Both the position numbers and the translations under genes were made by a program. Below the pieces are notes generated by a model. It worked only from the letters and a program-made list of their open reading frames with translations, did not search any database and was not told the DNA's origin. From a virus: a DNA stretch of 21,395 nucleotides. Numbering within the stretch: position 1 is the first letter of the stretch; every line of letters starts with the position of its first letter. Below are positions 5,027-20,048 of the stretch, piece by piece. The DNA lies in the IMG/VR virus record IMGVR_UViG_3300020179_000212, positions 1 through 21,395 of that record; one strand, 5' to 3'.

Positions 5027-5380
5027 TTAGGTTTTCTCCTTGCGTGGGGCGAGGATATCGTAGACCACGGCAAGCCGTTCTGCCGTCTCTGCGAACTCCT
5101 CAGCCCCCATATCTTGGGTCAGCCGGTCAAGCATGACCGACCCGGCCCCCAAGTCCTGCGTAAACCGATTGCAGCAGCTGCGATACAGCGACCAGACCTG
5201 CTGGTTGGCTTGGTCGAGGTCATTGAGGTGCGCCAATAGTTGACAGCCGTCACAGTCATACAGGTCAGGTTCCTGCTGTATTAGGTCGTCGTCTGCCGTC
5301 TGACAGCAGACGACCCGACCTGACGCCACCTCATCAGCCCAGAACTCAGCCCAGCTCCGTAGTTGTGCGAAAGGAGGCAT
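5027..5380 (-). CDS. Second tail assembly chaperone frame (gpT-like position)
   Basis: A 117-residue acidic protein lies between the chaperone gene and the tape measure, the position of the downstream frame of gpG/gpGT-type chaperones. It holds five cysteines, including CC at 25-26 and a C-x-x-C pair in YDCDGC at 41-46, and helical segments such as LLAHLNDLDQANQQVWSLY. The frame is +1 relative to the upstream gene and overlaps it by 35 bases. The ATG at 5380 has a GGAGG ribosome binding site six bases upstream, so it can be translated on its own rather than only as a frameshift fusion. The cysteine pair hints at metal binding, but that is inference. The function is assigned by position; I do not recognise the family with certainty. 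Confidence 0.65.
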   Translation of the reverse strand: MPPFAQLRSWAEFWADEVASGRVVCCQTADDDLIQQEPDLYDCDGCQLLAHLNDLDQANQQVWSLYRSCCNRFTQDLGAGSVMLDRLTQDMGAEEFAETAERLAVVYDILAPRKEKT

Positions 5381-5759
5381 CCCGTGCCTCCGACGCCTGC
5401 ACGATCTGGGTCAGCCCTGCCTTGCCCACTAACGCGGCCTTCAACACCCCGTCCAGGCGGTGCTTGTTTTCCGTCGTGCAGGGCGCAGGCGTGCCACCGC
5501 GCTCGACGATGCCTCGCCAATCAACCAGGACGTAGTCAACGATGGCGTCGGCAAACGCTTCCTGATCGACCACATCTTCCATCCGCTTGGTGACCTTATT
5601 CGGCACCTTGCGGCTGTAGCTCTTATTGAGTTCCCGCCACTTCTTGGTCGTTAATTCGCGCAGGACGTAGACCACCTGAGGGTCTGCGTCCTGCACGTCG
5701 TCCAATTCCGTCTCCTTCACTTCAAACGTATAGTCGTCCGACTGAAGCTGTCTCGGCAT
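5346..5759 (-). CDS. Tail assembly chaperone (gpG-like position)
   Basis: A 137-residue protein directly after the tail tube gene and before the tape measure. It has the usual features of phage tail assembly chaperones: an N-terminal beta stretch (DDYTFEVKETEL), a helical middle, the segment DYVLVDWRGIVERGGTPAPCTTENKHRLDGVL, in which a W-x-G-I core is followed by a conserved 'pcT-en' turn, and a short C-terminal tail. Such proteins bind the tape measure during tail assembly and are absent from the virion. The ATG at 5759 is preferred because AAAGG and GGAG sequences lie upstream; a longer TTG start would cover them. A 36-base gap separates it from the tail tube gene. Confidence 0.8.
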   Translation of the reverse strand: MPRQLQSDDYTFEVKETELDDVQDADPQVVYVLRELTTKKWRELNKSYSRKVPNKVTKRMEDVVDQEAFADAIVDYVLVDWRGIVERGGTPAPCTTENKHRLDGVLKAALVGKAGLTQIVQASEARDASFRTTTELG

Positions 5760-5795
5760 GCTCGGTGCCTTTCTCCTCAAAAAGCTGGCGCGTTG

Positions 5796-7304: not shown

Positions 7305-8177
7305 TTACGCTCGATTCCATCCGAAACTCGACGCGCCAGCCGTGACATCGCCTGCCGTCTGCGCGGCCTCGGCACTGTCGATCTGGTCGTCTACGGTGAT
7401 GGTGTCGAAATCTCGAGCCACTAAGAGCAGTGCGCCCTGCATGGCTTCGTCCGCGTCCCGCAGGTAGGCGTCGGCCTTTTCCTGCCACGGGCCGCCCTGC
7501 ATTGTCTGCGCTTCGCGGAAAATCAGACCCAGCGTTCGCAGCGTCACCGGACCGGTCAAGGCCGTGCCACGAATGCAGCCAATCTGCCCAGCAAACGCGC
7601 CCGCGGGTGTAGAGGTCAGCGTGATACGCGCCCAATACAGCGGAGCCGAGCCGTTCAGGGTGCGGGTCACCCAGTCTTGCGGCATCACCCAGCGCACATC
7701 GCCGCCCCGGCTGAAGGGCTTGTTGTTAAGGAACTGCGTCTCGTTTAGCGTCGTCACGCTTGTCCAAGCATCTGCCCAGACCTGGACGGTCAGGGTGCCG
7801 TTCGTGTTACTGACCTGATCCAGCATGCGAATCGACAAGCCCCGAAACTGAAACGGTGCGCCGACCAGCAGGTGGTCAGTTGCATGATTCGTGAACACCG
7901 TTGCCAGAGGGATGGTGGCGGCATTGGCGGTCGTCGCCTGCGAGGTGTAATCGGTATACGCGCCGCCGGTCAGTCCCCAGACTTTTGCTGGGGCATAGCG
8001 CGTCCGCAGACGTTCGGGCACAAACCCGGCCTTTGCTAGTGTTGGAAATGCCCAGTCCTCCAGAGCTTTTTTCCGCTTGACCTGCCAGGCGGTCTGTCCA
8101 AATTGCGTCAGAATGGTCTGCTCGTAGGCCTCAAGGTCGCTATCGAACACCACGTCGTTGGGAAACCAGACACTCAT
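7305..8177 (-). CDS. Head-tail connector-like protein with an inserted beta-rich domain
   Basis: A 290-residue protein that appears to be made of three parts. The N-terminal 60 residues and the C-terminal 75 (LGLIFREAQTMQGGPWQEKADAYLRDADEAM, then DFDTITVDD) look like the helical ends of adaptor proteins that describe 'Y-R-A' helices and a D-x-D turn. Residues about 95-205 form a beta-rich domain with the cues APFQFRGLSIRM, TLTVQVWADAWTS, FSRGGDVRWVMPQDW and YWARITLTST; this pattern recurs in many phage virion proteins as a surface domain. The ATG overlaps the preceding stop by ATGA. A role at the head-tail junction is inferred from order; the middle domain may face outwards and bind glycans. 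Confidence 0.6.
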   Translation of the reverse strand: MSVWFPNDVVFDSDLEAYEQTILTQFGQTAWQVKRKKALEDWAFPTLAKAGFVPERLRTRYAPAKVWGLTGGAYTDYTSQATTANAATIPLATVFTNHATDHLLVGAPFQFRGLSIRMLDQVSNTNGTLTVQVWADAWTSVTTLNETQFLNNKPFSRGGDVRWVMPQDWVTRTLNGSAPLYWARITLTSTPAGAFAGQIGCIRGTALTGPVTLRTLGLIFREAQTMQGGPWQEKADAYLRDADEAMQGALLLVARDFDTITVDDQIDSAEAAQTAGDVTAGASSFGWNRA

Positions 8178-11092
8178 AGCGGCTCCACATCTAGTGACGG
8201 CGGCGGCTCAAACAGCTTGAGCCACTCGGCCTGTTTTTGCGCCAGCAGCGCGGGAATCTGCCCAGCGTGCCGCACCCACACTCGTTCTGGCTTCGCGTGG
8301 CCCTTTAGCCCTTGTGTTTGGGCGGCAAAGGCCACTTCCACTTCCATTGCGCCCTGCACTCGCTTGACGGCCTGCTCATAGAACGGGTAGGCCAGCGGGT
8401 AATACTTGTCTGCCGGGTTGCTAAAGTGCGTTTCAAACAGCTCGACCACCTTCCGCAAGTGGGCATAGCCCTGCGTGGTCGTCTGCCCGTGCTGTTCAGT
8501 AGACCACGTAGACAGGTTCAGGTGGTCGCGCAGCACCAACAACTGGTGGAGTCGTCGGTCAGGAAAGACCTCCCCGTCACGCACCAGTAGCGGCAGATTG
8601 CGGCTAATGGCCTTCTGGCGTCGGATGTCCTCCGTCAGGTAGCCCGTATGCGCGATCTGCACATCATGCAGTTGCAGGGCGGGCGTAATGTCGCCGTTGC
8701 AATCGCCCTGCTGCGGCTGCTCATGGACGCACCCATAGAACTCGATGCTCGGTTGCTTCCGAAACACGCGGATCGGCGTGTCAAAGGTCAGCGGCATGTC
8801 CAGCTGAAGATGGTTCTGTTTGATACCGTAGCCCTGAAACACGGTGCCTTCCAGATACCGACACAGCGCGTGCGGATGCATCAGCCGCTCGTCACTGTCA
8901 ATCCACAGAAACCACGGCTCTCGTGCCGCTGCCAGTGTTTGGTTCCGCGCCTCAGCAAACCCGCCGCGCAGTGCAATGACCGAGCCGACTTCAATGCGCC
9001 TGGTGCGTGGATACTCTGCCAGTATCGGGGACAGCGCGTCGGCTCCAAGGCCCGTGTCTGCCAGAATAATCTCGTCAGCAATCGCCCAGATTGACTCCAG
9101 ACACCGCCGCAGGTCGATGGTTTCGCCCGCCAGAATGCCGACCGACAGTCCCTGCTTTGGACGCACCCGCCAGATCGTGTCGTCAAGATTGCGTAAGCCA
9201 AACGGCTGTCCGCTCAGTACGCAGGCCACAATCCAATGTCCCAGCCGGTTGCCGCGTGGACTGATGCCGAGGTCAAGCAGCGAGACTGCCAGGTCACGCT
9301 GTGTCCCAAAGATGGCTTCCAGGTCATCGGGCTGGTAATGGTGGACATGCCCACGCTTGAGCGGAATGTCTTTACTGGCGAGTTCCCCGAATGGGCCAGC
9401 GGGCATCGTACACACGATGCGAGCATCCCGCTGTCCCAGACCAGCGGTCGAGGAGAGGAAGCCCGAGACGTTGGCTATATGTTCGAGGAACTCGCCAATG
9501 AAGACCCCATCGAACGGCCCATACGCACGTAACCGCTCGAGCGTCTGCGGGTCAGCCTGATGGGTGGCATAGTCATACACCGCGCCGATCAAGAACGTGC
9601 AGCGGTCGTCCACACCCAGTTCCCGTGCAGCGGCTTCCGCAGCGGCTATGTTCTCGGGCGCATAGTCAATCCCGACGACCTGTCGCGTCGGGTTGGCGAG
9701 GGCCAGCGCGACGGCAAAGGTGCCGTTTCCACAGGCAATGTCCAGTACGCGCTGTGCGCCGTTCAGGGCACCGACCACCGGCTGGATGCGCAGGTTGTTT
9801 CGCAATTCAAACTGCGTGTCCATTGCCTGTGCCGAATAGTCCTCCGCGCCTTGATCCTTGCCGTCCATTACATGCTGGCACCAGGCTGCTGCGGAGACAT
9901 CGCCGAGTCGGTCAGCCAGTACCTGTGCCGCGCAGTGTTCGTCTTCGTGGAGCAGCTGCGCCAGCATCTGCGGCCCCTGTGTCGCCAGCCGCTGCTGCAC
10001 CAGCGCGTCGATACGGGCTTCCCATTCCTGCGCGACGGCATCGAAGGTGTAGTGCTGCACATGCCGCAGCCCCGCCTGGACGGCGTCAGCAGTGGTGCCG
10101 CCCGTCAGGATGTCCACGACGGCCTTGACGCTTTGCGCCTGATACTCCGCACTGTCGGCATCACCCGCAATCAGCGTGCCGTGTGGCACCGTCTCTGGCA
10201 GTGCGCCCTTGTAGCTGCCCACAAACGGCGTCCCACACGCTTGCGCCTCGATGGCTGCAACGCAGGACGTTTCCGCGAAATCGACCACGCCGGGATACCA
10301 CATGACTGCCGCGCCAGCAATGGCTCGATACAGGTCAGGCTTGCCCAGTTCGCCCAGATATCGGATGCCGCCCACCGCGTCGTTAACCGCCGCCACCTGC
10401 TCGTCATAAGCCGCGCACACACGGCCCCAGCCACTGGCGTCATACATCGAGTTATAGCGGCACAGGTGCAACTCGGCCTCTGGCACCAGCTGTCGCACTG
10501 CAGGCCACATTGCCAGCAGGGGTCGTAACCCGCGCTCAGGCCGAGTAATGTGAATGACGCGCTTGGGGTGCCGCGTGACGCCGGTGGGCACATACGCCGG
10601 GTCAAATCCGTTCTTGGTCGCCCAGCCAATGCCTGCCAGCTCAGGCATGATGCCTTCCCACTGCTTCCGGTGATACCCACTGACGTAGGCGACCAGGTCA
10701 TAGGCATACGCCGGGGCCATCGTCAGCACTTTGGCCTGTTCCCCGGTCATCATGTCTTGATTCCACAGCACCCGCACCGTTGCCGGGATGTGCTGGGTGA
10801 AGATGTGCGGCATTCGCAACCCCACAAAGACATCCCAGCGGGTAAACCGGCTGACATCGGCAATGTCTGCCGTCCGATGCCACTGAACGCCCGCCTGATC
10901 AATGCGCGGGGCGTCTGCATGCAGTTGCGTGGTAAAGATGTGGACGCGATGTCCACGAGCCTGTAACGCCCGCGCCAGTCCTAGGCAGGCCGATTCTGAA
11001 CCGCCCAGCGATGCCGTGCCGGCAATGACCGCAGGCGTAAACTCGACAGAATCAATATGAAAAGCCCAGGTGCTGCGCTTAGGCATCGGCAC
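8174..11092 (-). CDS. Three-domain glycosyltransferase - methyltransferase - glycosyltransferase
   Basis: A 972-residue fusion. Residues 1-375 look like a GT-B glycosyltransferase of the GT4 type: GGSES at 30-34, RPERG at 184-188 and the E-x7-E element at E274 and E282 within DFAETSCVAAIEAQACGTPF. Residues 385-645 are a class I SAM methyltransferase: VLDIACGNGTFA at 449-460, GIDYAPENI at 474-482 and GEFLEHI at 533-539. Residues 648-840 resemble GT2 enzymes: CLESIWAIADEIILADTG, then FAEARNQTL and the D-x-D motif in LWIDSDE (732-734); the usual K-N-E after the first strand is replaced by AGE. The helical C-terminus ends in a proline-rich tail. A GTG at 11092 has AAGG nine bases upstream; an ATG at 11086 is an alternative. 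It lies inside the virion gene cluster, so capsid or tail glycosylation, or building a capped glycan, is inferred. Substrates are unknown. Confidence 0.88.
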   Translation of the reverse strand: MPMPKRSTWAFHIDSVEFTPAVIAGTASLGGSESACLGLARALQARGHRVHIFTTQLHADAPRIDQAGVQWHRTADIADVSRFTRWDVFVGLRMPHIFTQHIPATVRVLWNQDMMTGEQAKVLTMAPAYAYDLVAYVSGYHRKQWEGIMPELAGIGWATKNGFDPAYVPTGVTRHPKRVIHITRPERGLRPLLAMWPAVRQLVPEAELHLCRYNSMYDASGWGRVCAAYDEQVAAVNDAVGGIRYLGELGKPDLYRAIAGAAVMWYPGVVDFAETSCVAAIEAQACGTPFVGSYKGALPETVPHGTLIAGDADSAEYQAQSVKAVVDILTGGTTADAVQAGLRHVQHYTFDAVAQEWEARIDALVQQRLATQGPQMLAQLLHEDEHCAAQVLADRLGDVSAAAWCQHVMDGKDQGAEDYSAQAMDTQFELRNNLRIQPVVGALNGAQRVLDIACGNGTFAVALALANPTRQVVGIDYAPENIAAAEAAARELGVDDRCTFLIGAVYDYATHQADPQTLERLRAYGPFDGVFIGEFLEHIANVSGFLSSTAGLGQRDARIVCTMPAGPFGELASKDIPLKRGHVHHYQPDDLEAIFGTQRDLAVSLLDLGISPRGNRLGHWIVACVLSGQPFGLRNLDDTIWRVRPKQGLSVGILAGETIDLRRCLESIWAIADEIILADTGLGADALSPILAEYPRTRRIEVGSVIALRGGFAEARNQTLAAAREPWFLWIDSDERLMHPHALCRYLEGTVFQGYGIKQNHLQLDMPLTFDTPIRVFRKQPSIEFYGCVHEQPQQGDCNGDITPALQLHDVQIAHTGYLTEDIRRQKAISRNLPLLVRDGEVFPDRRLHQLLVLRDHLNLSTWSTEQHGQTTTQGYAHLRKVVELFETHFSNPADKYYPLAYPFYEQAVKRVQGAMEVEVAFAAQTQGLKGHAKPERVWVRHAGQIPALLAQKQAEWLKLFEPPPSLDVEPL

Positions 11093-11273
11093 TCGTCACC
11101 GCCTTGCTGTTACGCTTGGGTGTGGCGGCTGCGGCCTTCTGCACCATTTCGTCGTAGGCGTCCAGCTTGGGCTGGACTTCAAATCGCAGATAGTCCTGCC
11201 AGCGGCGCAAGCTGGACTGGCGAATGTCTGCCGGTGTCCTGACTCGCGCAATCTCTTCGATAATGCTATCCAT
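11079..11273 (-). CDS. Small helical protein of unknown function, 64 aa
   Basis: I do not recognise the family. The 64 residues begin MDSIIEEIARVRTPADI, continue as a charged helix (RRWQDYLRFEVQPKLDAYDEMVQKAAA) and end in a basic, low-complexity tail. There is no signal peptide or membrane segment. The ATG at 11273 is preceded by a GAGGGGA ribosome binding site. It is the first gene after the hairpin behind the major capsid gene and overlaps the start of the large glycosyltransferase gene, so it is probably translationally coupled to it. It could be a capsid-related accessory factor or a partner of the enzyme; nothing in the sequence decides. Confidence 0.65.
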   Translation of the reverse strand: MDSIIEEIARVRTPADIRQSSLRRWQDYLRFEVQPKLDAYDEMVQKAAAATPKRNSKAVTSADA

Positions 11274-11301: not shown

Positions 11302-11312
11302 CCCACAAGTGG
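11302..11312. repeat. Copy of an 11-base near-palindrome (CCCACAAGTGG)
   Basis: CCCACAAGTGG, whose core CCAC-AA-GTGG is an inverted repeat with a two-base centre. The identical 11 bases occur at 16331-16341. Both copies are in the two longest non-coding gaps of the window, in the same orientation. An operator for the small helix-turn-helix protein encoded at 16345-16587 is one possibility. Confidence 0.45.
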
Positions 11313-11313
11313 A

Positions 11314-11341
11314 ACCGGGCCACTCAAGCGAGTGACCCGGT
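11314..11341 (-). terminator. Strong hairpin behind the major capsid gene
   Basis: The minus-strand RNA can form a 12-bp stem with a GCUU loop. Eleven pairs are Watson-Crick and one is G-U; on the plus strand that same position would be a C-A mismatch, so the structure fits RNA transcribed in the gene direction. It begins 10 bases after the capsid stop codon. Only a short UUCC follows instead of a U-tract, so it is more likely a partial terminator or a 3'-end stabiliser that lets the capsid message accumulate above the distal genes. Confidence 0.6.
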
Positions 11342-11351
11342 CCCCGTGTTA

Positions 11352-12494
11352 TCAGACCCGCAGACGAGCCATTGCGTTCGGGTGATGCACCTCAATGGTG
11401 TATTCGCCCGTCAACAGACCCTTCTTGTTGTCGCCCGAGACGCCCATCTCGGTGTAGTTGAACGACCGCCCCTGCAGCGGCACGACCTTGACGCGCTCAC
11501 GCGGCACCAGGAGCAGTTCCGTGCTAGACAGCACGCGGCTCAGGATGACGGTGGCACGACCCAGCGGCCCCTCGTAGGTGCGGATGACGCGCTTGAAGAG
11601 TTCGGACTGGTTGCTGTCCTCGACCTTCGTGTCGTTCAGGTTGCTAATGTCGCGGAAGAACGTCGGCCCCGCCACAATCGCCCAGGTCTCGGTGTCAGGA
11701 GAGCCGCCCTGCGAGTAAATCTGCTCCCAGACGTTGCCGATGAAGAGGTGCGGGTTCGCAGCAAAACTGCTAGCCGTGACCGTGGAATTGATGGTGCTGA
11801 GATAGTTCCGCAGCCCCTGCATCGTGCGGGTCTGCGACGAGGAGCCGAGCGAGTTGGTGCTATTCAGCACGCCGCGCACAACTTCCTTCTCCAGCTGATG
11901 CATCATGTCCACCACGCCCTTTGCCACCGCGTTGTCATAGGCATCGTTGCCGTAGACATTGATGGAAAGGTCAGTGCCAGACGCCGCCACGGGCATCTGG
12001 AACAGGCCGACGGTGTTGGCCTTGCGGTCACCCAGACGGCGGGTGTGCCGCCCGTCGTGATCCGCGCCTTCAATCCCCGCCATGCCACGGACGTAGAGCT
12101 GCCCGCCAGCCGCCAGCGAACCCACCGCGCCGCCGCCGTATGCACGGGTCGCCACGATGCTGTTGGCACCAACGATGCTCGACACCTGCATCACTTCGGT
12201 CTGCGTTTCGTTTTCCAGAAGCGTGCCGACGGTGAGAGCTTCACCCAGGCCGTTGATCTGGAACGCCGTCGCCGCCGTTGCCGAGTTAATCGCCGTTGAA
12301 GCCACGATGTAGTTGGGCAGCATGTAGTCCTGCACAAACTCGTGCTTCGTCGAAGTGGCGAACACATCGCCATCACCAAGAAAGTTTAGAAAAGGCGTTT
12401 CTTTCGGCGACAGCGTCGCAATCAGGCGCGAGACATCCTCCTGCACCAAGGACGCGGTAAACAGATCATTGGTCGAAAGACCACTAAAAGCCAT
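11352..12494 (-). CDS. Major capsid protein (SU10/DUF5309-like)
   Basis: The 380-residue protein follows the scaffold gene. It starts MAFSGLSTNDLFTASLVQEDVSRLIATLSPKETPFLNFLG, like the opening of SU10-type capsid proteins, in which 'D-v---I--l-P-etPf---lG' precedes the HK97-fold core. It then reads FVQDYMLPNYIVASTAIN, TLLENETQTEVMQVSSIV and a G-G-rich turn (RAYGGG). A long helix (AYDNAVAKGVVDMMHQLEKEVVRGVL) is followed by SQTRTMQGLRNYLST, fitting the spine helix and later segments of DUF5309-like proteins. The end (GLLTGEYTIEVHHPNAMARLRV) is a final strand. The ATG at 12494 has a GAGGAG ribosome binding site. No delta domain or protease was seen; the protein would form the icosahedral shell. 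The family name is from memory. Confidence 0.85.
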   Translation of the reverse strand: MAFSGLSTNDLFTASLVQEDVSRLIATLSPKETPFLNFLGDGDVFATSTKHEFVQDYMLPNYIVASTAINSATAATAFQINGLGEALTVGTLLENETQTEVMQVSSIVGANSIVATRAYGGGAVGSLAAGGQLYVRGMAGIEGADHDGRHTRRLGDRKANTVGLFQMPVAASGTDLSINVYGNDAYDNAVAKGVVDMMHQLEKEVVRGVLNSTNSLGSSSQTRTMQGLRNYLSTINSTVTASSFAANPHLFIGNVWEQIYSQGGSPDTETWAIVAGPTFFRDISNLNDTKVEDSNQSELFKRVIRTYEGPLGRATVILSRVLSSTELLLVPRERVKVVPLQGRSFNYTEMGVSGDNKKGLLTGEYTIEVHHPNAMARLRV

Positions 12495-18377: not shown

Positions 18378-18834
18378 CCTCGTCGTCGGAGGCTTCTACT
18401 TGAATGACAAACGCGGGCAAGTCGCCAATGATTTCCTGCTTTGTCGCCGCGTCCAGGCCCAGATACTTCGCTCGTCGTTCCTGCACGCGCAGACAGGCGG
18501 TAATGGCCTGCACATCGCCCCGCTGCGCCTTCGGAGCCAGCGCCAGCATGTAATCGTCGAGCCGCCGCAGCTCGAGGTCACGAATGACCTCGGCGTCCTG
18601 CTCGGTGACTTTCCGCAGCGCCGCCAGCTCGGCCTGCACATCCGCATAGGCCACTTCGACGCTGACTCCGCACTGCTGGGCGATGGTGCGGTAGTGTGCG
18701 CCTGCACGCCTCAGTTGCAGGGCTTTGGCACGCCGCTCGAGAATCTGCACATCCTCCGCGATGTGCGGCGGTCGGGTCGCCGACTGCTTACGTTTCTGCT
18801 GGCGGTGTGGGGCCACTGGTTTCTTGATGCTCAT
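18367..18834 (-). CDS. terS: Terminase small subunit
   Basis: A 155-residue protein directly upstream of terL. The N-terminus is basic (PHRQQKRKQSATRPPH). Residues about 32-68 (RRAKALQLRRAGAHYRTIAQQCGVSVEVAYADV) form a helix-turn-helix for packaging-site recognition, followed by long helices (residues 75-125) that would form the oligomeric ring. The end is acidic (EASDDEDVH), suiting contact with the large subunit. The ATG at 18834 overlaps the methyltransferase stop as ATGA, so packaging and modification genes are translated from one message. Confidence 0.85.
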   Translation of the reverse strand: MSIKKPVAPHRQQKRKQSATRPPHIAEDVQILERRAKALQLRRAGAHYRTIAQQCGVSVEVAYADVQAELAALRKVTEQDAEVIRDLELRRLDDYMLALAPKAQRGDVQAITACLRVQERRAKYLGLDAATKQEIIGDLPAFVIQVEASDDEDVH

Positions 18835-20048
18835 GCCGATGCGCCCTCACGAGTCGCGGTCTTGCCGGTGTAGGTTTCCCACCGCTGTACGATGACATCG
18901 CAATACTGCGGACTGATTTCCATCCCGTAGCACTTGCGGCCAAGCTGCTCGGCGGCGATCAGCGTGGTGCCGGAGCCAAGGAATGGATCGTAGACAAGCG
19001 TGGCTGCGTGGTTCCGCATCGGGCGAGCCATGCACTCAACGGGCTTCTGCGTGCTGTGCCCGGTCTCGGACTTGTGCGGCTTGTCGATCTGCCAGAGGGT
19101 CGTTTGCTTGCGGTCGTCTGTCCTCAGCCCCGGCTTGCCCTTGCGGACACAATACCAGCACGGCTCGTGCTGCGGATGGTAATCGCCACGCCCGATCACA
19201 AGTTGGTTCTTTGCCCAAATGATCTGTGCGCGGATGTGCAGGTCGCAACCAATCAGGCTTTCTGCCACGACGTGCGCCATGTTGCCAGCGTGCCACACGT
19301 ACGCCACGTCGCCGGGGAACAACCGCCACGCCTCCGACCAGTCGGCGCGGTCGTCGTTGGCAACCTTGCCGACAGCTCTGCCACCGTCGGGCGAGCCATC
19401 AGAGCGCAGCGCGTGGTTGCGCCAGTCCGCGTCATACTCGACCCCATACGGAGGATCGGTCACCATTAGCACCGGCACTACGCCGCCAAGACACCGCCCC
19501 ACGTCCTCGGCCTTCGTGGAGTCGCCGCACAGCAGCCGGTGGTCGCCAAGCAGCCACAGGTCGCCTGGCTTCGTAATCGGGTCGGCAGGCGGCTCAGGCG
19601 CAGCGTCTGGATCACCTAGTGCCTGCGCTGGCGCAAGGTCACCAAGCAGCTCCTGCAATTCGTCAGCGTTGAACAGCCCGTCGAGTTGATTATCCCGCGC
19701 CAATTGCTCTAGCACTGCCGCGTCCCACTCGGCCAGCTCAGCTGCCCGGTTGTCATACAGGGCCAGCCGCGTCTTCTGCTCAGGCGTCAGGCCCGTGCGC
19801 CTGACCGCCACCAGCTCATGGCCGCTGGCCTCGACTACCTTGACCGCAGTGATGCCAGCCTCTGCCGCCGCGTCCATCGTGGCATTTCCCGCCAGGACGA
19901 CGCCATCCTCATCGATGACGATTGACCGCGCTGCGCCCACTTCATGCAGGGCTGACACGATAGTGCCGACGTTTCGCGACGTATGCTTCCGCGCATTCTT
20001 CGGGTCGTGTACAAGGTCTTTGATGTGGTCAATAGGTTTGGACTTCAT
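18831..20048 (-). CDS. ParB-like domain fused to a DNA adenine-type methyltransferase
   Basis: A 405-residue fusion. Residues 1-100 resemble the ParB-like domain found in phage methyltransferases: NARKHTSRNVGTIVSALHEVG, VLAGNATMDAAAEAGI and VVEASGHELVAVRRTGL. The nuclease-type 'G-H-R-R' loop of true ParB proteins reads GNATMDA here, so it is more likely a DNA-recognition module than a nuclease. Residues 160-395 are the catalytic part: DPPY at 198-201, TQKP at 333-336, DPFLGSGTT at 354-362 and GMEISPQYCDV at 375-385. DPPY placed before the FLGSG motif is the beta-group order and suits N6-adenine methylation. No cognate restriction enzyme is evident, so protection against host restriction or a packaging mark is likely. 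AGGA precedes the ATG. Confidence 0.9.
   Translation of the reverse strand: MKSKPIDHIKDLVHDPKNARKHTSRNVGTIVSALHEVGAARSIVIDEDGVVLAGNATMDAAAEAGITAVKVVEASGHELVAVRRTGLTPEQKTRLALYDNRAAELAEWDAAVLEQLARDNQLDGLFNADELQELLGDLAPAQALGDPDAAPEPPADPITKPGDLWLLGDHRLLCGDSTKAEDVGRCLGGVVPVLMVTDPPYGVEYDADWRNHALRSDGSPDGGRAVGKVANDDRADWSEAWRLFPGDVAYVWHAGNMAHVVAESLIGCDLHIRAQIIWAKNQLVIGRGDYHPQHEPCWYCVRKGKPGLRTDDRKQTTLWQIDKPHKSETGHSTQKPVECMARPMRNHAATLVYDPFLGSGTTLIAAEQLGRKCYGMEISPQYCDVIVQRWETYTGKTATREGASA

Follow-up and report, generated by a model that had tools for sequence, protein, structure and literature searches.

The present study concerns an uncultured virus record from IMG/VR (IMGVR_UViG_3300020179_000212; positions 1 to 21,395, the whole 21.4-kb stretch being called the window) and a minus-strand gene in it that joins a glycosyltransferase (GT) of the GT4 class, a methyltransferase and a glycosyltransferase of the GT2 class in a single chain. 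On the minus strand, the genes that could be named through PHROGs and Pfam begin with a ParB-like/DNA methyltransferase fusion, terL, portal, minor head protein (named from weak Mu F / SPP1 gp7 matches), scaffold and an SU10-type major capsid protein (MCP). A 64-aa open reading frame (ORF) follows, and then the three-domain fusion, genes of 290, 142 and 354 aa, a tail-assembly chaperone, the tape measure and a tail protein (Table 1). The fusion ORF starts with GTG at 11092, an ATG at 11086 being the other possible start.

Table 1. The fusion gene, its domains and its neighbourhood in the window.
Feature	Position	Strand	Basis
GT4-methyltransferase-GT2 fusion gene, 972 aa	8174..11092	-	Pfam, AlphaFold2 model, full-length conservation in 100 distinct sequences
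GT4 (GT-B) domain, residues 1-370; GGSES 30-34, RPERG 184-188, K251, E274-x7-E282	9983..11092	-	PF13692; structural alignment
Class I SAM methyltransferase domain, residues ~426-625; motif I VLDIACGNGTFA 449-460	9218..9817	-	PF13847 3.7e-13
GT2 (GT-A) domain, residues ~640-820; ARN 715-717, IDSDE 731-735, HEQP 790-793, H-T-G-Y 815-818	8633..9175	-	PF00535; profile; Foldseek
C-terminal helical segment, residues 821-972	8177..8632	-	Long helices in model; purifying selection
290-aa gene, beta-sandwich virion protein, possible portal-tail connector	7305..8177	-	Model pLDDT 86; Foldseek
64-aa ORF overlapping fusion start	11079..11273	-	Homologue in many clade-1 relatives
Strong GC-rich hairpin directly 3' of capsid stop codon, before 64-aa ORF and fusion	11312..11345	-	-32.9 kcal/mol, z -5.4
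Major capsid protein, SU10_MCP family	11352..12494	-	PF17236 5.8e-45; phrog_1328

The original prediction, made from the letters of the window, had read the three domains and their motifs in this ORF, and Pfam and AlphaFold2 agree with it. Every Pfam match was over its curated cut-off (PF13847, methyltransferase, 3.7e-13; PF13692, GT4, 8.6e-8; PF00535, GT2, 1.4e-6), and the AlphaFold2 model, built with a 32-sequence alignment, was confident throughout (mean pLDDT 91.3, pTM 0.89). The GT4 domain has the GT-B fold, the E-x7-E motif and the basic donor-binding residues of its class. Its residues 4-368 aligned with sucrose-phosphate synthase, MshA and PimA over 324-339 residues (VIA-align Z ~32, rmsd 2.6-2.7), and its profile matches among solved structures were alpha-maltose-1-phosphate synthase and PimB'. 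The methyltransferase domain (PF13847 score 49.8 vs cut-off 27) shows the Rossmann fold and motif I loop of class I S-adenosylmethionine (SAM) methyltransferases. Its nearest solved relatives by profile include the sugar O-methyltransferases RebM (6.1e-14) and AtmM (a glucose O-methyltransferase, 2.1e-13), besides further small-molecule methyltransferases.

The GT2 domain (PF00535 score 28.8 vs cut-off 23.3; GT-A fold with D-x-D) matched, by profile against solved structures, GmaR (2.7e-33), SunS (5.2e-24) and ThuS (7.4e-22), all of which are protein or peptide glycosyltransferases. ThuS and SunS were also within the top Foldseek matches of this domain against all of the Protein Data Bank, and the ARN, D-x-D-E (IDADE), HE and H-x-GY residues are common to the fusion, GmaR and SunS. 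As had been noticed from the sequence, the domain is without the usual K-N-E: residues 655-657 read AGE. The consequence then drawn, a changed use of donor or acceptor, was not supported, since family members differ freely at this site (21 of 100 have E at 657), whereas the residues aligned with those of GmaR and SunS are invariant or almost invariant. Absence of K-N-E is common in the family alongside retained GT2 catalytic residues, and does not in itself point to altered chemistry. The helical segment that closes the chain could possibly be the acceptor-binding part. The chain has no strongly hydrophobic segment (maximum 19-residue Kyte-Doolittle mean 1.4), a value of 1.6 being reached by 11 of 100 family members.

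Relatives of the fusion were found at 16 close loci, at 66 loci by profile in viral contigs and on two contigs of metagenome-assembled genomes (MAGs); at least 253 relatives were confirmed when the search was started from distant members, and 80 of these were kept. In the viral-contig profile search the patterns lay in the GT4 domain only, yet the full-length matches also have the methyltransferase and GT2 domains. All three domains are kept in 100 distinct full-length fusions with pairwise identity down to 22%. Among them, R184, P185, E186, R187 and K251 of the GT4 domain occur in 100/100 and E282 in 98/100, position 274 being E or D; in the methyltransferase, D451 occurs in 98/100 and G457 in 100/100. 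The GT2 residues R716, W730, D732, D734, E735, H790, E791 and H815 are present in 100/100, although the distant-member search used GT4 and GT2 motif patterns (the LGGSESA and W-x-W-x-D-x-D regions), so that conservation in the distant branch is biased upward at residues 29-36 and 727-734. D732, D734 and E735 are invariant also in a 32-member set reached mainly via GT4 motifs. The NG86 dN/dS ratio was 0.04-0.28 in every domain, indicating purifying selection, with synonymous sites near saturation in the more distant pairs. A chance join or a misassembled ORF is ruled out by the many relatives that retain the full-length three-domain protein. Conservation and fold together support predicted activities for the three domains, whose catalytic residues are intact. 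In one member (L215:6001-9831), the fusion ORF is 1276 aa long and its GT4 domain is split by an intein with an HNH endonuclease (PF14890 3e-22, PF13392). Five loci (L223-L227) have almost no plus-strand ORFs beyond the fusion, as with a strand switch or an altered code.

The fusion within a morphogenesis operon had been called unusual, and this is right for cultured phages and wrong for uncultured ones, among which it is common. No match covering >=80% of the protein was present in the 50,697 catalogued phage genome records. When genome contigs were searched for copies in bacteria, only two matches came up, both on MAG contigs: L078 shows the complete head-tail gene order of a phage, and L079 its downstream portion.

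The position beside the capsid gene recurs with the fusion. Of 42 distinct SU10-type capsid sequences from a capsid-profile search, each with >=1.5 kb downstream, 41 have the fusion behind them, at a median gap of 302 nt; the set was pooled with loci found via the fusion, which biases it toward such an association. At loci newly found by two capsid searches, again with >=1.5 kb downstream, the fusion was present in 50/52, contig repeats not being removed. The original prediction is supported on both the fusion and its place. In the distant branch, the upstream ORF (~280 aa or more and chosen by hand, a smaller ORF being skipped in several loci) matched PHROG 1005, major head protein, in 50/56 loci; at one locus (L064) the capsid gene lies several genes upstream of the fusion and was picked by eye. 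Downstream of the fusion in this branch, a head-tail adaptor was the commonest named family (8/52). Since the window capsid belongs to phrog_1328/SU10_MCP and that of the distant branch to PHROG 1005, the fusion adjoins a capsid gene in two unrelated capsid lineages. Extra coding sequences between capsid and fusion were seen at two loci: L138:6700-7641 encodes basic proteins rich in Lys and Gly, in which KKRGGKGSVKASGRVGTG-like repeats occur, and a separate 200-aa gene at L042:1098-1700 is O-methyltransferase-like, as judged by eye from its sequence.

In the window, the placement between capsid and connector genes proposed earlier was confirmed for the capsid side, whereas the identity of the connector is less firm. 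The model of the 290-aa product gave a single significant Foldseek match, to chain M of the LME-1 phage portal-tail complex (E 1.4e-7), and weakly resembles carbohydrate-binding-module folds; a PHROGs search assigned it no family. To call it a connector is therefore reasonable, if weakly supported. The proposed overlap coupling to both neighbours stands on the downstream side, where the fusion stop and the 290-aa start share 4 bp (ATGA, 8174-8177). On the upstream side the overlapping partner is the 64-aa ORF and not the capsid gene, which ends 259 nt upstream of the fusion with no direct overlap; the fusion start covers the 3' end of the 64-aa ORF by 14 bp from the GTG or 8 bp from the ATG. 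The 64-aa ORF was rejected as a universal partner. Related short ORFs are found in many clade-1 loci, but those of the distant branch differ, which speaks against a component common to both. The hairpin behind the capsid stop is possibly a partial terminator, which would keep fusion expression under that of the capsid, or an RNA stabilizer. Two further gene arrangements were seen farther away on the minus strand. Near the terminase gene, positions 18831-20048 join a ParB-like domain and a DNA methyltransferase in one gene (phrog_498 4e-112). At 5027-5780, before the tape measure gene, the tail assembly chaperone ORF (5346-5780) overlaps another (5027-5380), perhaps as a programmed frameshift pair.

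We propose that the fusion is a soluble cytoplasmic enzyme which, in one chain, builds a short glycan with O-methylation on one of the virion proteins, the likeliest being the major capsid protein; we hold this to be probable. Modification of virion proteins was also the role first suggested from the sequence, and it is favored here by the capsid link in two lineages and by the protein glycosyltransferases to which the GT2 domain is akin. We infer glycosylation and methylation of a particle protein, and with it the acceptor, the sugars, the linkage, the order of steps, the late timing and the benefit. Synthesis of the fusion would fall late in infection, together with that of the head proteins, and the enzyme would act in the cytoplasm during head assembly. 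Like its relatives GmaR and SunS, the GT2 domain may move the first sugar from a host nucleotide diphosphate (NDP)-sugar straight onto a protein side chain; the GT4 domain would then add another sugar, and the methyltransferase would O-methylate a sugar as a cap. The order given in the original prediction (extension, methylation, further extension) would likewise be conjectural. Such a glycan could stabilize the particle, shield it or change its binding to cell surfaces. More broadly, the fusion may stand for a widespread and so far undescribed class of capsid glycosylation system, in which the capsid protein of many uncultured tailed phages receives its whole O-methylated glycan directly from a single three-domain enzyme. 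Such an enzyme would have moved between two unrelated capsid lineages and yet kept its place beside the capsid gene; for this broader reading we judge the chances to be about even.

Several observations weigh against the capsid protein as acceptor or against the breadth of the association. The capsid protein is put forward as the likely acceptor from gene position, and GT2 enzymes are able to act on many acceptors. The fusion is absent after the MCP of L150/L152 (41% capsid identity), the sole exception of the 42, and the pattern-driven inflation of residue counts in the distant branch also has to be borne in mind. Moreover, the pairwise distances of the fusion correlated at 0.65 with those of the 354-aa putative tail gene, at 0.63 with those of the minor head gene and at 0.56 with those of the capsid gene. 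The capsid is therefore not singled out as acceptor, and distance correlation was set aside as non-discriminating for this purpose.

If the acceptor instead belongs to the tail or the connector, such as the 290-aa or 354-aa product, the modification would tune adsorption. In the window the fusion and the 290-aa gene share a 4-bp overlap, the 290-aa gene comes next in almost every clade-1 locus long enough to show it, the beta-sandwich of its product has the faint likeness to carbohydrate-binding modules given above, the 354-aa gene has the best distance correlation, and mycobacteriophage enzymes modify both capsid and tail tube (PMC12363180). In the distant branch, however, the genes downstream of the fusion differ and it is the capsid gene that stays, upstream, so that we regard a tail or connector acceptor as rather unlikely, albeit the most serious competitor. 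Much less likely still is an action on a host surface glycan (lipopolysaccharide (LPS), capsule or teichoic acid) leading to superinfection exclusion; a host surface glycan was the alternative target named in the original prediction. The GT4 fold does resemble many envelope-glycan enzymes (PimA, TarM, PglA), and phage glycosyltransferases of serotype conversion are known; but the window fusion lacks a strongly hydrophobic segment, its GT2 domain groups with protein glycosyltransferases and its place within the head operon is stable. Glycosylation and methylation of phage DNA bases against restriction would have as its basis that DNA glucosyltransferases exist in phages and that the methyltransferase domain weakly matches (2.8e-5) a PHROG named DNA methyltransferase. 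We consider it highly improbable, as just one of 28 large contigs has a thymidylate-synthase-type enzyme over cut-off, the nearest solved relatives of the fusion domains act on proteins or small molecules, and the gene sits in the head operon.

The same 28 contigs (25-104 kb, carrying the fusion; the records may be fragments) were surveyed for sugar genes, with GT matches taken at E <= 0.001. A single GT2 match was found in 27 and a single GT4 match in 26, nearly all in fusion-sized open frames. An NDP-sugar epimerase/dehydratase was over cut-off in one contig and an NTP-transferase in none of the 28. Because genes of NDP-sugar synthesis are near absent from these contigs, the sugar donors probably come from the host. 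At three loci a further gene of 316-333 aa lies just before the fusion (L188:4934-5935, L191:5938-6888, L192:5935-6894), GT4-like by Pfam in L188 and L191, which suggests a longer glycan in those phages. At another, a GDP-mannose 4,6-dehydratase (PF16363 3.8e-113) is encoded just upstream of the fusion (L193:4660-5682), a hint to the sugar used there.

Within the literature surveyed, phage capsid glycosylation has been shown only in a few cultured mycobacteriophages. If the proposal is true, the many environmental phages with this conserved single-gene system next to the capsid gene would point to glycosylated heads as a common trait, and the fusion would be a compact enzyme suited to simple co-expression testing. 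No description of the family, its position or its spread was found in the literature searched, most subscription journals and bioRxiv preprints lying outside that scope. Foldseek against viral models returned further multi-domain GT/methyltransferase proteins of uncultured phages at 11-20% identity; the databases therefore already contain fused glycan enzymes from phages.

Of the solved relatives, GmaR of Listeria is a flagellin GlcNAc transferase and thus glycosylates a structural protein (PMC9638930). It is the closest to the GT2 domain by profile, but has TPR and antirepressor domains and neither GT4 nor methyltransferase, whereas in the fusion these two precede the GT2 domain and only ~150 residues follow it. 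The peptide S-glycosyltransferases SunS and ThuS, akin to the GT2 domain by Foldseek ranking and by shared motifs, are likewise not fused to a GT4 or methyltransferase domain, and the fusion scores far under the cut-off of the SunS family TIGR04195 (24.5 vs 350 bits).

A functional precedent for phage glycosyltransferases that act on virion protein comes from the mycobacteriophages Che8, Corndog and Myrna. The capsid of Che8 is glycosylated, and mycobacteriophage-encoded enzymes attach glycans to the major capsid protein and to tail proteins (PMC11256854, PMC12363180). Che8 gp108 is likewise a fusion, of a GT2-type domain and a TylF-like O-methyltransferase, gp109 being GT2-like and gp110 GT25-like. 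In contrast to the window fusion, no GT4 domain was found in gp108-110, and the three are separate genes near the genome end and not in the head operon. Neither gp108 (by BLASTP) nor gp109 and gp110 (profile vs single sequences) matched the window fusion significantly. A second functional precedent is A064R of chlorovirus PBCV-1, likewise a single viral chain, in which two glycosyltransferases and a methyltransferase extend, O-methylate and complete the glycan of the major capsid protein (PMC7826918, PMC9614988). A064R belongs to a giant algal virus, has 638 aa, other GT families and the order GT-GT-methyltransferase in place of GT4-methyltransferase-GT2, and extends an existing N-glycan. The window fusion may be viewed as a phage counterpart to this chlorovirus enzyme.

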